DNA from: Tachypleus tridentatus
Lineage: Eukaryota > Arthropoda > Merostomata > Xiphosura > Limulidae
NCBI RefSeq assembly: GCF_004210375.1
Contig: NC_134832.1
Span: 156,981,592-157,045,591, forward strand
Length of the DNA stretch: 64,000 nucleotides
Reading direction: 5' to 3'
Position 1 is the stretch's first letter; each line of letters begins with the position of its first letter. A model generated the notes under the pieces. The model had not been told where the DNA came from, did not search any database, and was given only the letters and a program-made list of their open reading frames with translations. The position numbers were made by a program, and so were the translations under genes. Positions 12,422 to 54,905 of this stretch are shown here, piece by piece.

Positions 12422-12744
12422 CTGCATGGAAATAAGAAATGACAATTAACATCCACGTATATGTCACCACAATTTATGGACAAGAACCTGTCACACACAT
12501 AATGAAATATTGATTTGCTAAGCTTTACTAACCAGATATGTTAAATATGACACCATTTTAATGCATCCCTGAGAACACTGTGGTTTTGTTGACAAGGTTT
12601 GCTGCTAGAATTATTTCCATGTCAAGAAAAGTTTTATCTATAGTAAAGTGATTCAGACAGAATGTGGTATTTGTTGTTAAACTTATTTAAGCATTGATTA
12701 AGTAACGTTAGGCTTTCTTATTACAGATAATCTAGAGTCACATC

Positions 12745-12965
12745 AAGTAATTCATGATGATGAGAAACCCACTTGAAGTAAAAATGTATTCTCAAGACAG
12801 ATGGTATAGGTATTAACACTTTAATTGAAATAAAGTACAGAACAATGTTTTTAGTATAGCTGCAAACTCTCTTTGTTAACCTGAAGATTGTCTAAGACAG
12901 TTGAAACACTGTTCTGTACTTTAATTTAATTAAAGTTTCAATACCCATTCCAGCCGTCACGAGAA
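12745..12965. repeat. fold-back copy of Penelope-type terminal repeat
   Basis: The left half contains gatgatgagaaacccacttg and runs to aaagtacagaacaatgttt. The right half is largely its inverse, from aaacactgttctgtacttta to cgtcacgagaaaac. The same unit occurs at 22360-22495 and 46775-46910. On the + strand gttaacctgaagattgtc (from about 12877) followed by gaaacactgttct resembles a decayed hammerhead core like those in the Penelope element at 23.6-24.8 kb. Assignment to that element class is inference from the shared end module. Confidence 0.5.
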
Positions 12966-14125
12966 AACATTTCAAGTAATTCTTGTAGAAAGCCCCTGTA
13001 AAACATATAATTATAATAAAGACAGAGAAAAGTGTAAATTTCAAGCTCTGATTAAAATGCCAGGGTGACAAAATTATAAGGGAAGATGTGTGTTCAACCA
13101 ATATTTTCCACCCAGTCTTACATGCCCCGAGATGTTTGGGAAGGAAAATTCATGGAAGTGTAATAGACCAGGCATGACAAAACACAGATTTGTACAGTAG
13201 TGTGACAGTGACTCAGATTTTTAATGGAAATCATCAAAAAGAAACATGGAGGCTTATAAAATCAGTCTTCAAGTACTGTTTTAACTCTACTTCAAAGTGT
13301 TTTTGATGACTGACCAGCTCTTAAATAGTCACTTGAGACCAGTGTAGTACAGCTGAAAATTGCATGCAATAATAATAAAGACATGGGAAAAGAACGGACA
13401 TTTATGACTGAGCTGGAATCCTTGAATATAAAAGCCCAATATAAAGGACTCACCCTGCATTTGTCAACACAGATGACTGACAAAAGTAAAGTGAAAAAGG
13501 ACTTGATGACTGGTACTACAAGAATATCTCAGTGAACAATGAATAATTTCACATGCATAAAAAACACTATACTATAATAAACACAGGTTAGTAAATTAAA
13601 TGTATAATGGTAAACCTGTTACACCATCTAGGTTACCTGTGTTTAAATTTACATTTAAAGATCAATTATTTTTTACTACAAGTCACATCTAATTTGGGAA
13701 CAGAGTTAAGTGAAAACTGTTATTATTAACTGGGTGCCTTTTACTCTCATGGTTTTGAAATTGGTGTGATTTTATGTACTTTGAGTTATAGGTTATTTGG
13801 ATGGACTTCTGTATTTCTTACTGAAGGGTTTTTTTATCTCCGGCTTTCTTTTGTTGATTTTGCACCTTATGTTTTGTTTTATGTTTTACATTCAAATTTC
13901 ATTGATTTCTAGGTTTACTATTTTATTTACTTTGTAATTACTAAAAGTTTTTATGTTATGTTCACTTGTTAGTATTAAATACTATCTCTTAGTATGTTTA
14001 CTTATGTGTCTTTTTGGCAACCCTTCATGACTTCCCAGATCTCTTTCCCTCCTCCTCAGGATTGTATCTCTTCCATTTGTTTTGTTGAGTTTGTTCAAGA
14101 TTCTCTATGACAACTCAACAGCAAT
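12966..14125. other. AT-rich non-coding DNA, nothing recognised
   Basis: No tandem repeats, SINE boxes or coding similarity recognised. The last ~100 bp may be more of the decayed DIRS element that follows. Confidence 0.35.
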
Positions 14126-18733: not shown

Positions 18734-18903
18734 TATTTTGCTATTCTCAATTAATTTAAGTACCGGAAGGCTATGATCGGGATGCCAATTTAGAAACATG
18801 TGTTTCTGTCCATAAGAGGTTCCATGTGTAAATAAATTCTATGTTTTTTTCTACTTTGCTATTTTCGTGAGAATAATTTTGTTTTGATTTCAGGGCTAGT
18901 AAA

Positions 18904-20693
18904 ATGTCAGCAGTTAAGAAACGAAAAATTGATGATGAGGGAAGGTTATTCAACAGTGAATGGTGCACAAAATATCTTGTTGTCCCACATAATCAAGGTG
19001 TTGTCTGCCTCGTCTGTCAAACTACAATTGCAGTCATGAAAGAGTACAATATTAAGCGACATTACGCAACTAAGCACTCCTCCCAGTTTGATGAAATTGT
19101 TGGTCAGGCACGAAAGGACAAAATTGAACATTTAAAACATCCATTGAAAAGCAACAAGGTGTTTTTACCACTTTCAAGAAAAATTCAGAACTGGTGACAA
19201 AACTGAGTTTAAGCTTTGTGAATGTATGGCAGAAAAGGGAAAGCATTTCAGTGATGGATAATTTATTAAAAATTGTTTAACAATATTCACAGAATATGCA
19301 TGTCCAGAGAAAAAATATTTGGTGGAGCAAACTAGCCTTTCCCGCTTTACTGTCTCACGCAGGACAAAAGATCTTTCAGAGGACATCAAAGAAACTTTGA
19401 AAGAGATTGAATTCGTGTGAAGCTTTCAGTCTGGCTTTGGATGAAAGCACTGATATCAATGACACATCCCAACTTGTCATTTTCATCAGAGCTGTTACTG
19501 CAGGCTTTGATGTTTTCGAAGAGTTTTTAGATATGGCAAGCCTTTCCTCCACAACCACAGGACAGGATATTTGTGAACAAGTGCTTAAGGTTGTAGAAAA
19601 GTTTGAACTGAATCCTTATAAATTATGTGGTGTTACAACAGATGGTGCTCCTTCCATGACAGGTAGGACAAATGGATTCACCAAGAAATTTCTAACTGCA
19701 ATTGGAGCACAAGACGTAGTTGTAAGCCATTGCATTATTCACCAAGAGAGCTTGTGCACCAAAGTTCTGGATTTTGCAGAAGTCATGAAAAATGTCGTCC
19801 AATGCGTAAATTATATTCGAACACGAGGATTAAATCATCGACAATTTAAAACTTTTTTAGATGAGCTGGACAGTGAGTATTCAGATGTTTTGTACTTCTC
19901 TGCTGTACGTTGGCTTAGTAGAGCTGCTACTTTGAAGAGATTCTGGAATCTGCGAGAGGAGATTAAGTTCTTCATGGAGAGCAAACGTCAGACTGTGGAC
20001 TTCTTGAGCAATGAGAACTGGCTGAATGACTTAGCATTCCTCACAGACATTACACAGCATCTGTCTGATTTAAACTTAAAACTACAAGGGAAAAGTCAAC
20101 TTGTGAATAAGTTGTTTGAGCATATTTGTGCTTTTGAGAAGAAATTGGAACTTTTCCAGGTTCAGTTGAGAAGAGCCATATTGACCCATTTTACATGTCT
20201 TGCAACCAGGAAACTGGAATTTCCTAATCTGGATTGCACCAAATATGGAACCAGTGTACAAAAGCTGCGTGATGAGTTTGCAAACAGATTTCCAGATTTC
20301 AGACAAACTGAAATTAGATTGAAATTGTTCGCTCAACCTTTTGATTTGGCAGTGGAAGACAGTCCTGATGATTGCCAAATGGAACTCATTGAACTGCAGG
20401 CTGACATGGACACTAAAAGGAAATTCTCTGAAAACAGTTTGCTAGACTTTTACAAACTCTGTGTACGTGAAAAGTTTCCCAATTTGTCCCGTCATGCACA
20501 AAGAATTGCCTCCCTTTTTGGTAGCACCTACTGCTGTGAGCAATTTTTCTCCAAAATGAAGCTCATCAAAACCAAATGTAGAAGTCAGCTGACTGATGAA
20601 CATTTGACCAGTCAGTTAAGAGTGGCAACCACTTCTGTCAAAGCTGATTTTGACAAGCTCTGCAAGGACTCTAAATTTCAAGTGTCGCACTAA
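18904..20693 (+). pseudogene. hAT transposase (ZBED5/GTF2IRD2-like), frameshifted
   Basis: hAT transposases bind the element ends through an N-terminal zinc finger and cut with a DDE/RNase H-like core. The first open part (18904-19197) has a BED/C2H2-like finger: CLVCQ, then HYATKH about 25 residues later. The second (19407-20693, 428 residues) holds the catalytic region with LALDESTDIND and GVTTDGAPSMTG, which carry acidic residues. It ends in a hAT dimerisation region including FGSTYCCEQFFSKMKLIKT. The linking part reads through three frames: shifts occur near 19150, 19205 and 19404, and a TAA stop lies at 19259-19261. An inactive protein is therefore expected despite the intact ends. It resembles the transposase-derived ZBED5/FAM200/GTF2IRD2 group rather than a host gene. 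Confidence 0.93.
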
Positions 20694-23565: not shown

Positions 23566-23629
23566 TGATTGCATCTCCATATATGCAAAAACGGCTCGTT
23601 TGGGTTGAGAAAATATTTTACATAAAAGA

Positions 23630-23671
23630 GCGAACAACGTTTCGACCTTCTTTGGTCATCGTCAGGTTCAC
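23630..23671 (-). ncRNA. candidate hammerhead ribozyme, left terminal repeat
   Basis: On the minus strand: GTGAAC (stem I 5' side), core CTGACGA (fits CUGANGA), an extra T, stem II GACC/GGTC with loop AAAGAA, GAAA, then CGTT and GTTCGC (stem I 3' side, pairing with GTGAAC including one G-U pair). The expected cleavage site is after GTT. Stem III is reduced to about one pair. It is the mirror copy of the motif at 24715-24756, with a one-base change in loop II. Confidence 0.65.
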
Positions 23672-23769
23672 AAAGGAAGAGGTAACTGACCGGATCTGAC
23701 CACATGTTTGGAAGGGGTTGTGTAACTGAGTGTCGGAATGTAGAGCATTTTTCAATCACATTAACTCTA

Positions 23770-24607
23770 TACATCCCAACATTAACTTCACATGTGAACA
23801 GGAAGAAAGCAATCAAATATCATTTCTTAACCTCAAAATTACAAGAACCCACACACAATTCAAAACAGAATTCCACTGAAAAATCACCATACTGGACTAT
23901 ACATTCCTTGGGACTCAGCACATGAAACAAAACAAAAACTCAACATACTAAGAAACCAAATAAACACAGCCATAAAACTATGCTCACCAAATAAAATTAA
24001 CGATGAATTAGACAAAATAAAACAATACTTCATCAACATCAATAAGTTTCCTTCACAAACCGTAGAAAACATTATACGCACACACCTAGACAGAAAGCAA
24101 AATCAACCAACAAAAGTTAATACATCTCACGAATCAAAAAATCACGAAACCATATACTGCTGCATACCATATATTCCTGACATCAGCAGACAAATAACCA
24201 ACATTTGGCAAAAACTAGTAACAAAATATGATATTCCATTTAATACCAAATTTATTCAAAAACCAGTCACAAAACTGAGGTCTATACTATGTAAAAACTA
24301 CACTGACAAACACCACACCAACATTATTTATAAAATACAATGTGATAACTGCCACGACTTCTATATTGGAGAAACAAGTAGAAAAATGGAAACCAGATTC
24401 AAAGAACATAAAAAGTCACCTTCACACGTTTTCAAACACTGCAAGTCAAATAAACACAACATAACCATAGAAAACACTCAAATACAAAATAAAGAAACAA
24501 ACACAAAGAAACGCAAAATTAGAGAAGCCTTACTTGTACAACAACTTAAACCCAAAATAAACCAATATAAAGGAACGCTTTATACCTATATTAATATAAT
24601 AAAATAG
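23770..24607 (+). pseudogene. Penelope-like polyprotein C-terminus with GIY-YIG endonuclease
   Basis: In Penelope-like elements the reverse transcriptase is followed by a GIY-YIG nuclease that nicks target DNA. From about 23780 one frame reads NFTCEQEESNQISFLNLKIT, a typical segment near the end of the reverse transcriptase. After a stop and a frame change near 23880-23905 a long open stretch of about 230 codons runs to the TAG at 24605-24607. It begins GLYIPWDSAHETKQK. It contains the GIY-YIG region YKIQCDNCHDFYIGETSRK with METRFKEH directly after, and a Lys-rich end. The Cys pair and the YIGET-R-EH spacing match this domain. The palm and finger regions of the reverse transcriptase, including any YADD box, are absent, so the protein is a 5'-truncated remnant. 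Confidence 0.85.
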
Positions 24608-24714
24608 ATAAATTATATATTGAAACATCTAACACCGCTCTCTTCATTCCGACACTCAGTTACACAACCCCTTCCAAACATGTGGTCAGCTACCGGTCAG
24701 TTACCTCTTTCTTT

Positions 24715-24756
24715 GTGAACCTGACGATGACCGAAGAAGGTCGAAACGTTGTTCGC
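24715..24756 (+). ncRNA. candidate hammerhead ribozyme, right terminal repeat
   Basis: The order is: GTGAAC at 24715-24720, core CTGACGA at 24721-24727, one extra T, stem II GACC (24729-24732) and GGTC (24739-24742) around loop GAAGAA, GAAA at 24743-24746, CGTT, then GTTCGC at 24751-24756. GTGAAC and GTTCGC can form a 6-bp stem I. The conserved hammerhead nucleotides are present, stem III is nearly absent, and one base is inserted next to the core. Such variants are known from Penelope-like elements; activity here is inferred, not shown. Confidence 0.68.
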
Positions 24757-24879
24757 TCTTCTATGTAAAATATTTTCTCAACCCAAACGAGCCGTTTTGG
24801 AAAAAATATTTCTCTACAAGTGAATTTTCTCTACACCACTGATTGCATCTCTAACGGCCACTTAATGGAAACACGATTG

Positions 24880-25152
24880 TTTTTTTGTTTACTTGTTTTT
24901 CATTTTCGCACAAAGCTTCTCGAGGGCTATCTGTGCTAGCCGTCCTTATTTTATCAGTGTAAGACAAGAGGGAAGGCAGCTAGTCATCACCACCCACCAC
25001 CAACTCTTTGGCTACTCTTTTACCAACGAATAGTGGGATTGACCGTGACATAATAACGCCCCCACGGCATGGAGGGCGAGCATGTATGGTGCGACCGGGA
25101 TTCGAAACCGCGACTCTCGGATTACGAGTCGAACGCCTTAACACGCTTGGAT
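24880..25152 (-). repeat. tRNA-derived SINE, family A
   Basis: On the minus strand the head reads ttaaggcgttcgactcgtaa (A-box side) and cggtttcgaatcccggtcg (B box). The body follows, with gagtagccaaagagttgg and tagctgccttccctcttgtc, and the tail is aagctttgtgcgaaaatga. The pol III promoter boxes and 3' tail agree with the other family A copies in this window. It begins just after the Penelope element's target duplication. Confidence 0.9.
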
Positions 25153-25739: not shown

Positions 25740-25925
25740 TAATGTCGTTGTTGTCTTTGAGCTTTAAAACTGGATTATTGAATTGTCTTTGGTAACATTC
25801 GTTAAGATTTTATAGTTCTTTGAATTTCATTGAATATTTTATGTCTTCTTTAGTAAGTTCTTTTATTATTCTTTTTCGATAATTACGGTTTCACCACCTT
25901 TATTAGTGTTTACTATGTCTTATAC
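25740..25925 (-). pseudogene. Penelope-like reverse transcriptase N-terminal remnant
   Basis: On the minus strand one frame gives NTNKGGETVIIEKE, resembling the DKGGGTVI motif near the start of Penelope-type reverse transcriptases. After stops and a frame change come MKFKEL and YQRQFNNPVLKLKDNND, then ITEEMY, in the order expected for that region. It is badly decayed and distinct from the element at 23.6-24.8 kb. Confidence 0.5.
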
Positions 25926-25930
25926 TGTTA

Positions 25931-26000
25931 AATTAGGGACGGCTAGCGCAGATAGCCCTCGAGTGGCTTTGCGCGAAATTCCAAAACAAACAAAGAAACA
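25931..26000 (+). repeat. SINE family A 3' fragment
   Basis: Contains gggacggctagcgcagatag, then ccctcgagtggctttgcgcg and an A-rich end with aaacaaacaaag. It matches the 3' part of family A copies in + orientation. The tRNA head is absent. Confidence 0.8.
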
Positions 26001-26349
26001 ATCTATAATAATTTGAGAATTATTCCATAATTACTTTTATATTGGAATGTGACGTTTCGTAACGTTTTGTTTTAGTTATTAAGTAGATAATCTACAATTC
26101 TGGACGATGTTTCATGGATGAAATTGTTCAGGTTTTTATAAATACTGTTTCTTGATAATCAGTTTTAGTTCATTTTGCAGCCGTTAGGGTTTAAGTCTGC
26201 ATGTGACACAAGGTTCATGATACCTTTATTTGAGCTACCTCAAAAGTTCTTCATTATATTATATTTAAATATGTATATCATAGAGAGAGGATATTTGAAA
26301 GATATAGAGAACACTTTGGGATGTTAGATACTTTTAAAATACATTTAAT
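26001..26349. other. AT-rich non-coding DNA, nothing recognised
   Basis: No recognisable feature in about 350 bp. Confidence 0.3.
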
Positions 26350-29599: not shown

Positions 29600-29880
29600 G
29601 GTTTTTCATTTTGATTCTGAATTTTGCTCAAAGCAATACGAGGGTTATCTGCGCTCGCCGTCCATAATTTAGTAGTGTAAGAATAAACAGACGGCAGCTA
29701 GACTTCACCACCCACCGCCAACTCCTTTGTTAATCGTTTACCAACAAATTGTGGGATTGATCGCCAGATTATAACACCCCAACGGCTGAAAGGACAGTAT
29801 GTTTGGTGCGATGGGTGTTTGAACCCGCGCAGCCTCGGATTAGGAGTCGAGTGCCTTAACCACTTGGACATGACGCCATA
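29600..29880 (-). repeat. SINE family A
   Basis: On the minus strand: gttaaggcactcgactccta (A-box side), gcgggttcaaacacccatcg (B box), then the body and a tttgagcaaaattcagaatc tail. It is more diverged than the copy at 24880. Confidence 0.88.
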
Positions 29881-30789: not shown

Positions 30790-33700
30790 ACAGGGTGATC
30801 TTTAGATTCTGATATAACATTATGTGATCATCTACTAGAACTAAATAAGTATAGGGTGTTTGTATTCTGCTATAACGTTATGTGATATTCTACTTGATGT
30901 AAATAAGTATAGGGTGTTTAGATTCTGCTATAACGTTATGTGATATTCTACTTGATGTAAATAAGTACAGGGTGTTTAGATTCTGCTATAACGTTATGTG
31001 ATATTCTACTGAATGTAAATAAGTACAGGGTGTTTAGATTCTGCTATAACGTTATGTGATATTCTACTTGATGTAAATAAGTACAGGGTGTTTGTATTCT
31101 GCTATAACGTTATGTGATATTATACTTGATGTAAATAAGTATAGGGTGTTTAGATTCTGATATAACGTTATGTGATATTCTACTTGATGTAAATAAGTAC
31201 AGGGTGTTTAGATTCTGCTATAACGTTATGTGATATTATACTGAATGTAAATAAGTACAGGGTGTTTATATTCTGATATAACGTTACGTGATATTCTACT
31301 AGATGTAAATAAGTACAGGGTGTTTATATTCTGCTATAACGTTATGTGATATTCTACTGAATGTAAATAAGTACAGGGTGTTTATATTCTGATATAACGT
31401 TACGTGATATTCTACTAGATGTAAATAAGTACAGGGTGTTTATATTCTGCTATAACGTTATGTGATACTCTACTGAATGTAAATAAGTACAGGGTGTTTA
31501 TATTCTGCTATAACGTTATGTGATATTCTGCTAGATGTAAATAACTACAGGGTGTTTAGATTCTGATATAACATTATGTGATATTCTACTGGATGTAAAT
31601 AAGTACAGGGTGTTTATATTCTGATATAACGTTACGTGATATTCTACTAGATGTAAATAAGTACAGGGTGTTTAGATTCTGCTATAACGTTATGTGATAT
31701 TCTACTGGATGTAAACAAGTACAAAGTGTTTATATTCTGCTATAACGTTATGTGATTTTTTACCAGATGTAAATAAGTACAGGGTGTTTAGATTCTGCTA
31801 TAACGTTATGTGATATTCTACTAGATGTAAATAAGAACAGGGTGTTTAGATTCTGATATAATATTATGTGATCACCTACTAGAACTAAATAAGTATATGG
31901 TGCTTATATTCTGCTATAACGTTACGTGATATTCTACTTGATGTAAATAAGTACAGGGTGTTTAGATTCTGCTATAACGTTATGTGATATTCTACTTGAT
32001 GTAAATAAGTATAGGGTATTTAGATTCTGATATAACGTTATGTGATATTCTACTAGATGTAAATAAGTACAGGGTGTTTTGATTCTGATATAACGTTATG
32101 TGATATTCTACTAGATTTAAAAAAAGTACAGGGTGTTTATATTCTGCTATAACGTTACGTGATATTCTACTAGATGTAAATAAGTACAGGGTGTTTAGAT
32201 TCTGCTAAAACGTTATGTGATATTCTACTGGATGTAAATAAGTACAGGGTGTTTATATTCTGCTATAACGTTATGTGATATTCTACTAGATGTAAATAAG
32301 TACAGGGTGTTTAGATTCTGCTAAACGTTATGTGATATTCTACTAGATATAAAGAAGTACAGGGTGTTTAGATTCTGCTATAACGTTATGTGATATTCTA
32401 CTAGATGTAAATAAGTACAGGGTGTTTAGATTCTGCTATAACGTTATGGTGATATTCTACTAGATGTAAATAAGTACAGGGTGTTTATATTCTGTTCTAA
32501 CGTTACGTGATATTCTACTAGATGTAAATAAATACAGGGTGTTTATATTCTGCTATAACGTTATGTGATATTCTGCTAGATGTAAATAACTACAGGGTGT
32601 TTAGATTCTGATATAACGTTATGTGATATTCTACTGGATGTAAATAAGTACAGGGTGTTTAGATTCTGATATAACGTTATGTGATATTCTATTGGATGTA
32701 AATAAGTACAGGGTGTTTAGATTCTGCTATAACGTTATGTGATTTTTTACTAGATGTAAATAAGTACACGTTGTTTATATTCTGCTATAACGTTATGTGA
32801 TATTCTACTGAATGTAAATAAGTACAGGGTGTTTATATTCTGATATAACGTTACGTGATATTCTACTAGATGTAAATAAGTACAGGGTGTTTATATTCTG
32901 CTATAACGTTATGTGATTTTTTACCATATGTAAATAAGTACAGGGTGTTTAGATTCTGCTATAACGTTATGTGATATTCTACCGGATGTAAACAAGTACA
33001 AAGTGTTTATATTCTGCTATAACGTTATGTGATTTTTTACCAGATGTAAATAAGTACAGGGTGTTTAGATTCTGCTATAACGTTATGTGATATTCTACTA
33101 GATGTAAATATGAACAGGGTGTTTAGATTCTGATATAATATTATGTGATCACCTACTAGAACTAAATAAGTATATGGTGCTTATATTCTGCTATAACGTT
33201 ACGTGATATTCTACTTGATGTAAATAAGTACAGGGTGTTTAGATTCTGCTATAACGTTATGTGATATTCTACTTGATGTAAATAAGTACAGGGTGTTTAG
33301 ATTCTGATATAACTTTATATGATATTCTACTAGATGTAAAAAAGTACAGGGTGTTTTGATTCAGATATAACGTTATGTGATATTCTACTAGATTTAAAAA
33401 AGTACAGTGTGTTTATATTCTGCTATAACGTTACGTGATATTCTACTAGATGTAAATAAGTACAGGGTGTTTAGATTCTGCTAAAACGTTATGTGATATT
33501 CTACTGGATGTAAATAAGTACAGGGTGTTTATATTCTGCTATAACGTTATGTGATATTCTACTAGATGTAAATAAGTACAGGGTGTTTAGATTCTGCTAA
33601 ACGTTATGTGATATTTTACTAGATGTAAATAAGTATAGGGTGTTTAGATTCTGATATAACGTTATGTGATATTCTACTTGATGTAAATAAGTACAGGGTG

Positions 33701-36318
33701 TTTAGATTCTGCTATAACGTTATGGTGATATTCTACTAGATGTAAATAAGTACAGGGTGTTTATATTCTGTTCTAATGTTATGTGATATTCTACTGGATG
33801 TAAATAAGTACAGGGTGTTTATATTCTGTTCTAACGTTATGTGATATTCTACTTAATGTAAATAAGTAAAGGGTGTTTATATTCTGCTATAACGTTACGT
33901 GATATTTTACTAGATGTAAATAAGTACAGGGTGTTTAGATTCTGCTGTAACGTTATGTGATATTCTACTAGATGAAAATAAGTACAGGGTGTTTAGATTC
34001 TGATATAATATTATGTGATCACCTACTAGAACTAAATAAGTACATGGTGTTTATATTCTGTTCCAACGTTATGTGATATTCTACTGGATGTAAATAAGTA
34101 CAGGGTGTTTATATTCTGATATAACGTTACGTGATACTCTACTAGATGTAAATAAGTACAGGGTGTTTATATTCTGCTATAACGTTACGTGATATTTTAC
34201 TAGATGTAAATAAGTACAGGGTGTTTAGATTCTGCTATAACGTTATGTGATATTCTACTAAATGTAAATAAGTACAGGGTGTTTATATTCTGCTATAACG
34301 TTATGTGATACTCTACTGGATGTAAATAAGTACAGGGTGTTTATATTCTGCTATAACGTTATGTGATTTTTTACCAGATGTAAATAAGTAGAGGGTGTTT
34401 AGATTCTGCTATAACGTTATGTGATATTCTACTTGATGTAAATAAGTACAGGGTGTTTAGATTCTGCTATAACGTTATGTGATATTCTACTGGATGTAAA
34501 TAAGTACAGGGTGTTTAGATTCTGCTATAACGTTATGTGATATTCTACTTGATGTAAATAAGTACAGGGTGTTTAGATTCTGCTATAACGTTATGTGATA
34601 TTCTACTGGATGTAAATAAGTACAGGGTGTTTAGATTCTGCTATAACGTTATGTGATATTCTACTAGATGTAAATAAGTACAGGGTGTTTATATTCTGCT
34701 TTAACGTTATGTGATACTCTACTGGATGTAAACATGTACAGGGTGTTTATATTCTGCTATAACGTTATGTGATTTTTTACCAGATGTAAATAAGTACAGG
34801 GTGTTTAGATTCTGCTATAACGTTATGTGATATTCTACTGGATGTAAATAAGTACAGGGTGTTTATATTCTGATATAACGTTACGTGATATTCTACTAGA
34901 TGTAAATAAGTACAGGGTGTTTATATTCTGTTCTAACGTTATGTGATATTCTACTGGATGTAAATAAGTACAGGGTGTTTATATTCTGATATAACGTTAC
35001 GTGATATGCTACTAGATGTAAATAAGTACAGGGTGTTTATATTCTGCTATAACGTTATGTGATACTCTACTGGATGTAAACAAGTACAGGGTGTTTATAT
35101 TCTGCTATAACGTTATGTGATTTTTTACCAGATGTAAATAAGTACAGGGTGTTTAGATTCTGATATAACGTTATGTAATACTCTACTGGATGTAAACAAG
35201 TACAGGCTGTTTATATTCTGCTATAACGTTATGTGATTTTTTACGAGATGTAAATAAGTACAGGGTGTTTAGATTCTGCTATAATGTTATGTGATATTCT
35301 ACTAGATGTAAATAAGAACAGGGTGTTTAGATTCTGATATAATATTGTGTGATCACCTACTAGAACTAAATAAGTATATGGTGCTTATATTCTGCTATAA
35401 CGTTACGTGATATTCTACTAGATGTAAATAAGTACAGGGTGTTTAGATTCTGTTATAAGGTTATGTGATATTCTACTAGATGTAAATAAGTACAGGGTGT
35501 TTGTATTCTGCTATAACGTTATGTGATATTCTACTTGATGTAAATAAGTATAGGGTGTTTAGATTCTGCTATAACGTTATGTGATATTCTACTAGATGTA
35601 AATAAGTACAGGGTGTTTAGATTCTGCTATAAAGTTATGAGATATTCTACTAGATGTAAATAAGTACAGCGTGTTTATATTCTACTATAACGTTATGTGA
35701 TACTCTACTGGATGTAAATAAGTACAGGGTGTTTATATTCTGCTATAACGTTATGTGATTTTTTACCAGATGTAAATAAGTACAGGGTGTTTAGATTTTG
35801 CTATAACGTTATGTGATATTCTACTAGATGTAAATAAGTACAGGGTGTTTAGATTCTGTTATAAGGTTATGTGATATTCTACTAGATGTAAATAAGTACA
35901 GGGTGTTTGTATTCTGCTATAACGTTATGTGATATTCTACTTGATGTAAATAAGTATAGGGTGTTTAGATTCTGCTATAACGTTATGTGATATTCTACTT
36001 GATGTAAATAAGTACAGGGTGTTTAGATTCTGCTATAACGTTATGTGATATTCTACTAGATGTAAATAAGTACAGGGTGTTTAGATTCTGCTATAAAGTT
36101 ATGTGATATTCTACTAGATGTAAATAAGTACAGGGTGTTTATATTATACTATAACGTTATGTGATACTCTACTGGATGTAAATAAGTACAGGGTGTTTAT
36201 ATTCTGCTATAACGTTATGTGATTTTTTTACCAGATGTAAATAAGTACAGGGTGTTTAGATTTTGCTATAACGTTATGTGATATTCTACTAGATGTAAAT
36301 AAGTACAGGGTGTTTACG
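30790..36318. repeat. 58-bp satellite-like array, about 95 copies
   Basis: The unit is gatgtaaataagtacagggt, gtttagattctgctataacg and ttatgtgatattctacta (58 bp). Copies are highly similar over about 5.5 kb. Most units carry ATAACGTTAT, a perfect 10-bp palindrome with a CpG, with a common gttacgtg variant. Two main sub-types (tttagattctg and tttatattctg) alternate irregularly. A rare variant unit with atattatgtgatcacc followed by tactagaactaaataagtat occurs at about 31861, 33138, 34008 and 35342. These spacings are close to 22, 15 and 23 units, showing higher-order duplication. No long open frame runs through it. Confidence 0.97.
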
Positions 36319-39124: not shown

Positions 39125-39365
39125 TTAGGCCTGACATGGCTTAATGGTCAGGTTACTCGACTCCTTATTAGCAAGTTTAGAATATTAATCCTTGTTTTCG
39201 AAGTTTCTTTTCCTTTTTATTCCATGGTAAAAGAGTAACCGAAGAGTTGGCAATATGTAGTGTTGACTAGTTGCCTTCCCTCTAGTCTGTCACTGCTAAA
39301 TAAGTGAGGGATAGGTCACATAACCATTGTGTTGCTGTGTTCGAAATTCGTATAAATAAAAGGAT
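39125..39365 (+). repeat. SINE family A, diverged
   Basis: The + strand reads ggcttaatggtcaggttact (A-box side), then a body with agttgccttccctctagtct and gtcactgctaaataagtgag. These are the + strand equivalents of the blocks in the other family A copies. The B box is eroded. Confidence 0.75.
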
Positions 39366-46565: not shown

Positions 46566-46774
46566 TTGCTGTCTATTTCATCAAATTCCGTTTTCATCAA
46601 TGCTGCTTTCACTCTCAAAAAACTGAAGCCTAATTCTGCATAACCGACATTGACATGTATTAATATCATTGATCTGATTGACTTCCTTGTTTTACCGAGA
46701 ACAGTTTTATGGGTAGAATTTATCAGACAGCAAACTAAAAAAAAAAATACGACTTATTAATGGAAATTTATCAT

Positions 46775-46910
46775 TCGTGATGAAGAGAAACCCAATTGAA
46801 ATAAACATGTATTTCAAGACGATTTGTATGGGTATTAAAACCTTTATTACAATAAAGCAGAGAACAACGTTTCGACCTTCTTAGGTCACCTACAGGTTAA
46901 CAAAGAGAGA
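46775..46910 (-). repeat. Penelope-type terminal repeat with decayed hammerhead motif
   Basis: Contains gatgaagagaaacccaattg, tatgggtattaaaaccttta and gagaacaacgtttcgacctt. On the minus strand the order GTTAAC, CTGTAGG, T, GACC-TAAGAA-GGTC, GAAAC, GTTGTTCTC parallels the hammerhead candidates at 23.6 and 24.7 kb. Here the core CUGANGA is mutated and stem I pairs poorly. Confidence 0.6.
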
Positions 46911-52159: not shown

Positions 52160-52420
52160 TCTTTACAAATTTTGTTTGTTTTGAATTTCGCGCAAAGCTA
52201 CACAAGGGCTATCTGCGCTAGGCTTCCCTAATATAGCAATGCTAAACAAGTGAGAAGGCAGTTAGTCATCACAACCCACCGCTAACTATTGGGCTACTCG
52301 TTTACCAACGAATAGTGGGATTGACCATAATATTATAACGTCCCCGCGGCTCAAAGAGATTCGAACCTGCAGCCCTCAGATTACGAATCGAGCGCCTTAA
52401 CCACCTGGCTATTTACATAT
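52160..52420 (-). repeat. SINE family A
   Basis: On the minus strand: gttaaggcgctcgattcgta, gctgcaggttcgaatctctt (B box) and a body with actattcgttggtaaacgag. The tail is tagctttgcgcgaaattcaa, as in other family A copies. Confidence 0.92.
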
Positions 52421-54171
52421 TTTAATAATTATAGTTCATTTTTAATTTTTTACCGGTCGTTAAGCGAAGATAGCTTTACCACATGAAACTCCAACCAACC
52501 AACGAACTTTTGTTTGAGAGTTATAATGATACAAACATTCTCATGAAGGTAATACACAGATCAATTGTAAAAGAATGAGTAAAACCTTTACTTCAGATTT
52601 ATTTTTATCACAAGTTCTTCTCTGTCTTGTGATTGGCTGTGGTGAGAAGCATATACATTATTTATTACATCATGGAAGTTCCATGTGATATCACCGAAGG
52701 GGGTCCAGCTTAAGCTGACCTTCATTGGTGTTTGAAGTATGTAAACTTTTGGATTAACGAACGTTCCACATATTTATGTTGACGTATTCTCCATTTTTAT
52801 ATATTAATTTAACTATATTTCGATTGATTTTATTATCGTGTATAGAAACGTGAATTAATTGTTTGACAATCTCCTACATCACTCTGATCTTCTGTGGTTT
52901 GATAATCTCAATCAATCAAATAACATTGTATCCATCAGCTGGATCAGAAGTTTACTTCGCAAAGGTGTTAACCTGATGGAAGGTTGTAATCACAGATATT
53001 GTACTTGGTTTAAAATGACAACTGAAACAGTGTAAGGTTTGTTTGATTAAAATTTAAAAAATTGAATACCAATTATTTCACTTATGTCAGTGGGAGATGC
53101 TTGAACACAAGTGACTAAATTTTGTTACGTGTTTACCGATTAATGTTTCGTTTCAGTATGGTCCTAAACTTTTGACCAGCTAGTATTTAGGCTAATTTCA
53201 TAGTGTAAACATTTTCCCTATTAAATGTTAAAAAAAGTTTTTATTATTATTTTCCCTTTTCTTATTTTCATTTTTTGAAGCTCTACTCAAATAAGTGGTA
53301 GAGTCTAACAACACAAAATGATATATTTTCTTTATGGTCATTGGCCTTATGATTTTCGCCAGCAATATATATTCATTAAGGATGAATATAGTTTTTTATG
53401 CTACACAACATCGTGAGATATTAACGTGTTTATAGCCGAAGACAACGCTAGAAGTGTAGTGATAAAACAATGCACTTCAACCTTTAAAACTATGAATGTA
53501 AAAAATCATATTTAATTAGGTATATTTTATTATTTCGTAGCATTACTCTAATGAGATAGTCTGACGAGACAGTGATTTAAAATAATCAAATTATTTTTCA
53601 ATTTCTCCTTGGGAACACATATTTCTAAAGAGCAAGTTCTCAAGGAGAGAAATTATTATGTAAACAAGCATGTAACTTCTATGAGAAAGAATGACTCCTG
53701 CGTTATAAAGTAATTAAATATTTTTATTTTCCCAGTACAAGTAACTAGAAATCTTTGTAGAGTATTAAATCTACAGTTAGGTGGTAAGTTGAAAGGTTTA
53801 GTGTTACATGATTTTATTTTTGTCATAATCTAACGGGAGTCTGATTACATAAAAGCTGATACGTTAACGATAAAGTTCATGCGTTGTCATGATATTGATA
53901 TAAATTTAATTATCCGCTACAATCGATAGTTCATGTATATCTTTAATATCTTCTGCAATCTGCAATGTTTCATGTACATCAATATAAACTGAAATACCTG
54001 CTGCCATCAATGTTTCATTATATATCTATAAAAACAGATTGTATATTAACAGGTATTAACCTCATCAGTTCACCTGAAACATTGAGGTTTGGTTAAACGT
54101 TAAGATCTGTAATCAGTAACACAAGCTTTGTCATTCACGAGTATTGTTGGGTGCGAAATATTGAGGAGTAT
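52421..54171. other. intronic AT-rich DNA, nothing recognised
   Basis: About 1.75 kb without recognisable coding, SINE or tandem-repeat content. Confidence 0.4.
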
Positions 54172-54495
54172 TGTTTGTTTTTGAATTTCGCACAGAGCGA
54201 CTCGAGGGCTATTTGTGCTAACCGTCCCTAATTTAGCAGTGTAAGACTAGAGGGAAGGCAGCTAGTCATCACCACCCACAGCCAACTCTTGGGCTACTCT
54301 TTTACCAACGAATAGTGGGATTGACCGTCACATCATAACGACCCCACGGCTGAAAGGGCGAGCATGTTTGGCGCGACGGGGATGCGTTAAGGCGTTCGAC
54401 TCGTAATCCGATGGTCGCGGGTTCGAAATCGGTCGATGGGTTCGATAGCCCTCGAGTAGCTTTGCGCGAAATTAAAACCAAACAAACTATTTACA
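54172..54495. repeat. two SINE family A copies head to head
   Basis: From 54172 to about 54382 a minus-orientation copy runs from the tail (gaatttcgcacagagcgact) to the region next to the tRNA head. It is joined directly to a + orientation copy with gttaaggcgttcgactcgta, then ggtcgcgggttcgaaatcgg (B box), then the tail gtagctttgcgcgaaattaa. The body of the second copy is mostly deleted. Both promoters' heads meet near 54383. Confidence 0.85.
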
Positions 54496-54905
54496 GCGTT
54501 ATAAAATGTGTTTTTAATACCAAGATAAACTGTTCGAGACACAGTTCGTATTATCCATACACTCATTAGGCTAAATGTTATTGCAATGTTTCGTAGTCTT
54601 ATCATTTCATATACACTGGTTTTAAGTTTCACGAAAATAAAAAAATAATAGGTGAACCAGACTAACTTTATAACGTCAGTAAAGGTACATATTAATGGTA
54701 TCATATAAACTGTGTTATTTTAATTTCATGTTAATTCGTATTAACAACTTATTATGGACTTTTTCAAGTTTGAAAATATCATCAATAGTTTTAAGTTGTG
54801 TAAGAGATGTCTATATTTTTTCTTCAAAACAATATAATATAAAAATAGTTGGAGTGGAATGTTTGTAGTTTATTTTCTATAAAACCCATTCATTTTCTTC
54901 TTTAG
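54496..54905. other. intronic AT-rich DNA, nothing recognised
   Basis: No recognisable feature; a pyrimidine-rich tract precedes the acceptor of exon 3. Confidence 0.35.

Follow-up and report, generated by a model that had tools for sequence, protein, structure and literature searches.

We identified the motif at 24715-24756 of the analysed window (the whole stretch of 64,000 nucleotides from the Tachypleus tridentatus assembly) as, very probably, a minimal type I hammerhead motif within the pseudo-LTR of a dead, 5'-truncated Penelope-like retroelement, the motif being placed, in a living element, at the junction of pseudo-LTR and ORF, where an additional T would give an ATG at the position of the ORF start of an Anolis element and cleavage could free unit-length RNA. 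Judged by its letters and its position, the motif itself, i.e. a minimal type I hammerhead in a Penelope-like pseudo-LTR, is confirmed as real. It is hereafter called copy A and is composed as follows:

24715-24756, plus strand: hammerhead motif copy A, with stem I at 24715-24720/24751-24756 and the core at 24721-24727
24728, plus strand: extra T
24729-24732/24739-24742, plus strand: stem II
24743-24746, plus strand: GAAA
between 24750 and 24751, plus strand: predicted cut, after GTT

Type I hammerheads are defined by the core CUGANGA, followed by GAAA, and by a UH at the cut. Read in order, copy A consists of GTGAAC, CTGACGA, T, GACC, GAAGAA, GGTC, GAAA, C and GTT, followed by the cut and GTTCGC. 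Stem I has 6 bp including one G-U pair, stem II is formed by four Watson-Crick pairs closed by a 6-base loop, and the single T separates the core from stem II. The core, stem II GACC/GGTC, GAAA, GTT, the 6-bp stem I and the inserted T were all claimed by the initial annotation and stand on re-reading of the sequence. It had further described a stem III of about one pair; the reduction is correct, the actual maximum being two pairs, A15.1-U16.1 and C15.2-G16.2, with zero loop bases between them. Stem III cannot be closed within the molecule because AACGTT leaves no loop. This AACGTT is a palindrome, by which intermolecular pairing is possible. Small hammerhead variants with a diminished stem III in Penelope-like elements are reportedly the subject of Lunse 2017 and of Cervera and de la Pena 2014, and copy A resembles these variants, showing the features of the minimal Penelope form, i.e. 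a type I core lacking a usable helix III, location in a Penelope pseudo-LTR and a palindromic stem III permitting dimers.

Comparison within the window, by BLAST and a pattern search, revealed three more copies, the near-identical copy B and the decayed copies C and D, all of which were absent from the initial annotation:

23630-23671, minus strand: hammerhead copy B, differing from copy A in one loop base
46860-46901, minus strand: decayed hammerhead copy C, retaining stem II but altered at two conserved core bases and with a 3-bp stem I
12875-12916, plus strand: decayed hammerhead copy D, with an intact core and a 3-bp stem I but without stem II and U16.1

The type I core together with UH is present in copies A and B and not in C and D, and stems I (6 bp) and II (4 bp) are correctly placed in A and B. 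Conservation of the two pairings in other copies, which had been named as a check, thus holds for copy B and only partly for C and D. The T at the inserted position is present in each of the four copies detected in the window. The basis for judging conservation being two decayed copies and two copies from one insertion, neither the shared T nor the likeness of A and B is proof of selection. The initial annotation regarded copy A as special in combining the inserted base with the missing stem III. This view is not supported, as the T is common to four of four copies, and Penelope hammerheads are described as usually lacking helix III, the minimal type I form without it being already established in Penelope pseudo-LTRs (PMC7761336, PMC7229834).

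We consider it extremely improbable that the motif is a chance match. A full descriptor requiring the core, 0-2 inserted bases, a 4-bp stem II, GAAA, UH and a stem I of at least 5 bp finds exactly two sites in the window on both strands and none in 60 dinucleotide shuffles. A looser core pattern gives two sites against 0.07 expected, and a fixed pattern gives three, of which two are exact and the third has 2 mismatches, where 0.00 are expected. Moreover, the site is one at which Penelope hammerheads are known. Speaking for chance, bare core matches arise randomly in large collections: among the matches listed, 129 stretches contain the core, T and GAAACGTTG, 11 of them in viral contigs and 118 in prokaryote genomes, the latter number being a lower bound. 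None of these 129 listed stretches combines a stem II of at least 4 bp with a stem I of at least 5 bp, and we rejected them as relatives of copy A, judging them chance matches to a pattern that is too loose. A stricter pattern returned three viral-contig stretches, one of which has the core; it was rejected as a relative as well, the ORFs of its contig looking phage-like. A search with a 19-base pattern gave zero matches, and no match was found in phage records. Also on the side of chance, Rfam, run without a positive control, gave no match for the whole window at the gathering score and none around copies A and B at E values up to 10; a hammerhead model search had been proposed by the initial annotation, with a missing hit as one outcome speaking against the motif.

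The surroundings of copies A and B show both to be parts of a single insertion, delimited by a 12-bp direct repeat and having the following structure:

23566-23577, unstranded: left target-site duplication TGATTGCATCTC
23578-24839, plus strand: entire Penelope-like insertion, truncated at the 5' end, its pseudo-LTRs arranged head to head
23578-23745, minus strand: inverted pseudo-LTR with copy B, tail absent
23831-24607, plus strand: 258-aa open frame, remnant of the element's ORF
24308-24607, plus strand: GIY-YIG endonuclease part (PF01541), last 99 aa of the frame
24608-24839, plus strand: pseudo-LTR with copy A, its start set at the base after the stop codon
24809-24839, plus strand: 31-nt tail, on copy A's pseudo-LTR only
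24840-24851, unstranded: right target-site duplication TGATTGCATCTC

Random flank pairs drawn from the window share 12 or more bases in 0 of 781 cases and 10 or more in 7 of 781, the 781 pairs being what remained of 1000 after removal of 219 that were too close together or lay in the satellite array. This array extends over 30801-36316, with a 58-bp unit in about 95 copies at 90% matches, and several smaller arrays occur elsewhere in the window. The inverted arms around A and B show 94% identity in a 115-nt stretch and 98% in a 50-nt stretch, and in the pseudo-LTR of copy A the similarity to the inverted arm starts at 24640. Counted from C3 to the end of the insertion, there are 119 nt for copy A and 88 nt for copy B, therefore a tail of 31 nt on A.

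The last 99 aa of the open frame match PF01541 at positions 3-78 of 78 with an E value of 2.2e-4 and 21.9 bits, 0.7 bit under the cutoff of 22.6; a Pfam scan of the entire 258-aa frame did not show GIY-YIG. No reverse transcriptase match was obtained with Pfam in the frame, most of that region having been lost by the 5' truncation. As a protein query the frame gave no confirmed relative, the PDB sequence search returned nothing and NCBIfam nothing useful, and the predicted structure of the frame, having a mean pLDDT of 38.5, was set aside. A comparable architecture is described for Penelope of the rotifer Adineta vaga, with an inverted adjoining pseudo-LTR, an optional 31-bp tail, 5' truncation and short target-site duplications, the latter being 8-10 bp long in the rotifer compared to 12 and 11 bp here (PMC3846280); the main text of that paper never uses the word "hammerhead". 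The 11-bp duplication belongs to a second insertion in the window:

12743-12753 and 12972-12982: 11-bp duplication TCAAGTAATTC
12754-12971, unstranded: second Penelope-type insertion, ORF-less, with head-to-head pseudo-LTR pieces, piece E on the minus and piece D (with copy D) on the plus strand

Counted by hand, it has a 29-nt tail on one side, on piece E. From these sequence features we conclude that the element at 23578-24839 is Penelope-like, truncated and dead, and the locus of copy A is most likely a fossil without function. The placement of the hammerhead in a Penelope-like terminal repeat, as initially proposed, is thereby borne out by the pseudo-LTR arms, the duplication and the GIY-YIG match.

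Type I hammerheads also occur in animal retrozymes (PMC7229834), and copy A could on this ground be assigned to such a small non-coding hammerhead retroelement, with the Penelope neighbourhood being accidental. We regard this as highly improbable, as both hammerheads lie together with the endonuclease remnant in one insertion with one pair of duplications. Tandem arrays scoring at least 200 overlap none of the copies, and the short tandem non-coding units with canonical hammerheads that mark a retrozyme are not seen here. Elsewhere in the window, a hAT-like transposase is represented by two open frames at 18877-20693, in which a hAT C-terminal dimerisation region (E 7.9e-7) and a zinc finger of the Spin-doc type (E 7.7e-11) were matched. 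An interspersed repeat occurs in both orientations at 24876-25142, 25916-26006, 29611-29786, 39218-39349, 52161-52238 and 54171-54496, one copy lying directly downstream of the Penelope insertion; it looks SINE-like, and ARAGORN found no tRNA in it.

The extra T forms an ATG with its two neighbours:

24727-24768, plus strand: ATG, made up of A9, the extra T and G10.1, with a frame of 13 codons to TAA, identical in copy B

The closest counterpart is the Penelope/Poseidon element PAc of Anolis carolinensis, in which the ORF is described as starting at stem II of its hammerhead, with the cut 26 bp downstream of the ORF start and reverse transcription starting at +111-118 (PMC11167929). PAc and copy A share the hammerhead at the junction of pseudo-LTR and ORF, stems I and II, and the start codon at stem II preceded by C3 and G8, the extra U in PAc being derived from the text description and not from the letters of PAc (PMC11167929). 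Measured from the A of the ATG, the cut of copy A lies at 24 nt compared to 26 in PAc, and the end of the insertion at 113 nt, within the PAc range of 111-118 (PMC11167929); for the second insertion, a hand count gives 114, from 85 nt in D and the 29-nt tail of E. As the distances from ATG to cut and from ATG to end fit PAc, the extra T probably derives from the second position of an ancestral start codon. By this analogy, use as a start codon is likely for an ancestor and putative in this family. In contrast to PAc, both intact copies here run into a stop after 13 codons of the frame starting at the ATG, and they belong to a truncated element with head-to-head pseudo-LTRs. The would-be start codon reads GTG in copy C and ATT in copy D. 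In copy C (46771-46889, minus strand), unlike in A and B, the frame at the ATG position has one early stop and thereafter 36 open codons, to about the end of the tail. The pseudo-LTR of the rotifer element Pen2a_Av comprises the first 12 codons of the ORF compared to 82 nt here from the ATG to the end of the short pseudo-LTR (PMC3846280), and this differing spacing counts against the start-codon reading.

Taken together, we infer a mechanism according to which, in the living element, the pseudo-LTR would continue into the ORF with the motif at the junction, and the extra T would turn A9-T-G into an ATG at the place at which the ORF of Anolis PAc starts. Cleavage after GTT, 24 nt past the ATG, could free unit-length RNA from tandem read-through transcripts, and either the element's protein or a second RNA might compensate for the missing stem III.

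The second RNA could act in a double hammerhead, in which two RNAs or tandem copies share a 4-bp stem III formed from AACGTT and each active site uses the cleavage strand of the partner; we regard this as possible, if doubtful. Dimer cleavage of hammerhead variants is reportedly the claim in the title of Lunse 2017. The palindrome allows such a dimer in principle, its pairing being nested and every pair being standard, and dimers are described as needing a palindromic stem III and tandem motifs (PMC6466107). Such tandem same-strand copies are not present here: copy B, the neighbour of copy A, runs in the opposite orientation, and on the strand of copy A the closest copy found, about 12 kb off, is decayed. 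Lacking a same-strand partner nearby, cis-dimer cleavage is unlikely at this locus, and action as a dimer, which the initial annotation had suggested, is possible in principle through the palindrome. A transcript across both pseudo-LTRs is predicted to form a long duplex (-288.4). The double hammerhead is predicted at -22.9 and is thus less stable than a pair of monomers each in its best fold (-30.4) or than the best fold of the dimer (-31.8); with a linker of 30 A residues the values are -20.8 versus -32.3. Mg2+ and tertiary contacts are left out of account in these energies. Finally, RNA of PAc is described as being cut only in the presence of the element's protein, with C3 and G8 being needed (PMC11167929).

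For bare RNA of copy A, a rod pairing core bases is predicted at -15.2 kcal/mol compared to -11.2 kcal/mol for the hammerhead stems, energies which ignore Mg2+ and tertiary contacts. This best predicted fold is an extended hairpin in which GACG of the core pairs with CGTT of the cleavage site. It would suit a reading according to which the motif is kept as a structured hairpin or a protein-binding site of the pseudo-LTR and is non-catalytic in the family, and hammerhead-mutant PAc RNA is reported to have still worked for insertion in vitro (PMC11167929). We nevertheless judge this reading improbable, as the matching bases are those of the hammerhead core, and cleavage of PAc depends on C3 and G8, a double change rescuing it partly (PMC11167929). 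For a minimal hammerhead, the modelled preference for the inactive rod and the absence of a near same-strand partner agree with the protein-dependent cleavage observed for PAc.

Copy A alone means little, since minimal hammerheads are known in thousands in animal genomes (PMC7761336). Two observations are useful, i.e. the T in four of four copies at the position of the start codon of the best-studied element, and the end of the insertion within a few bases of the published start of reverse transcription. The embedded start codon would deserve more interest if full-length copies bear it out. The purpose of Penelope hammerheads is "still a mystery" according to a review (PMC7761336). Speculatively, and with rather more doubt than confidence, the T may be a selected base that places an AUG inside the ribozyme, and cleavage would thereby behead the message: the uncut RNA would serve as mRNA, and binding of the element's protein to the downstream stem-loop would then promote the cut and turn the RNA into the template. 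If this is true, the hammerhead would be a switch from translation to template.
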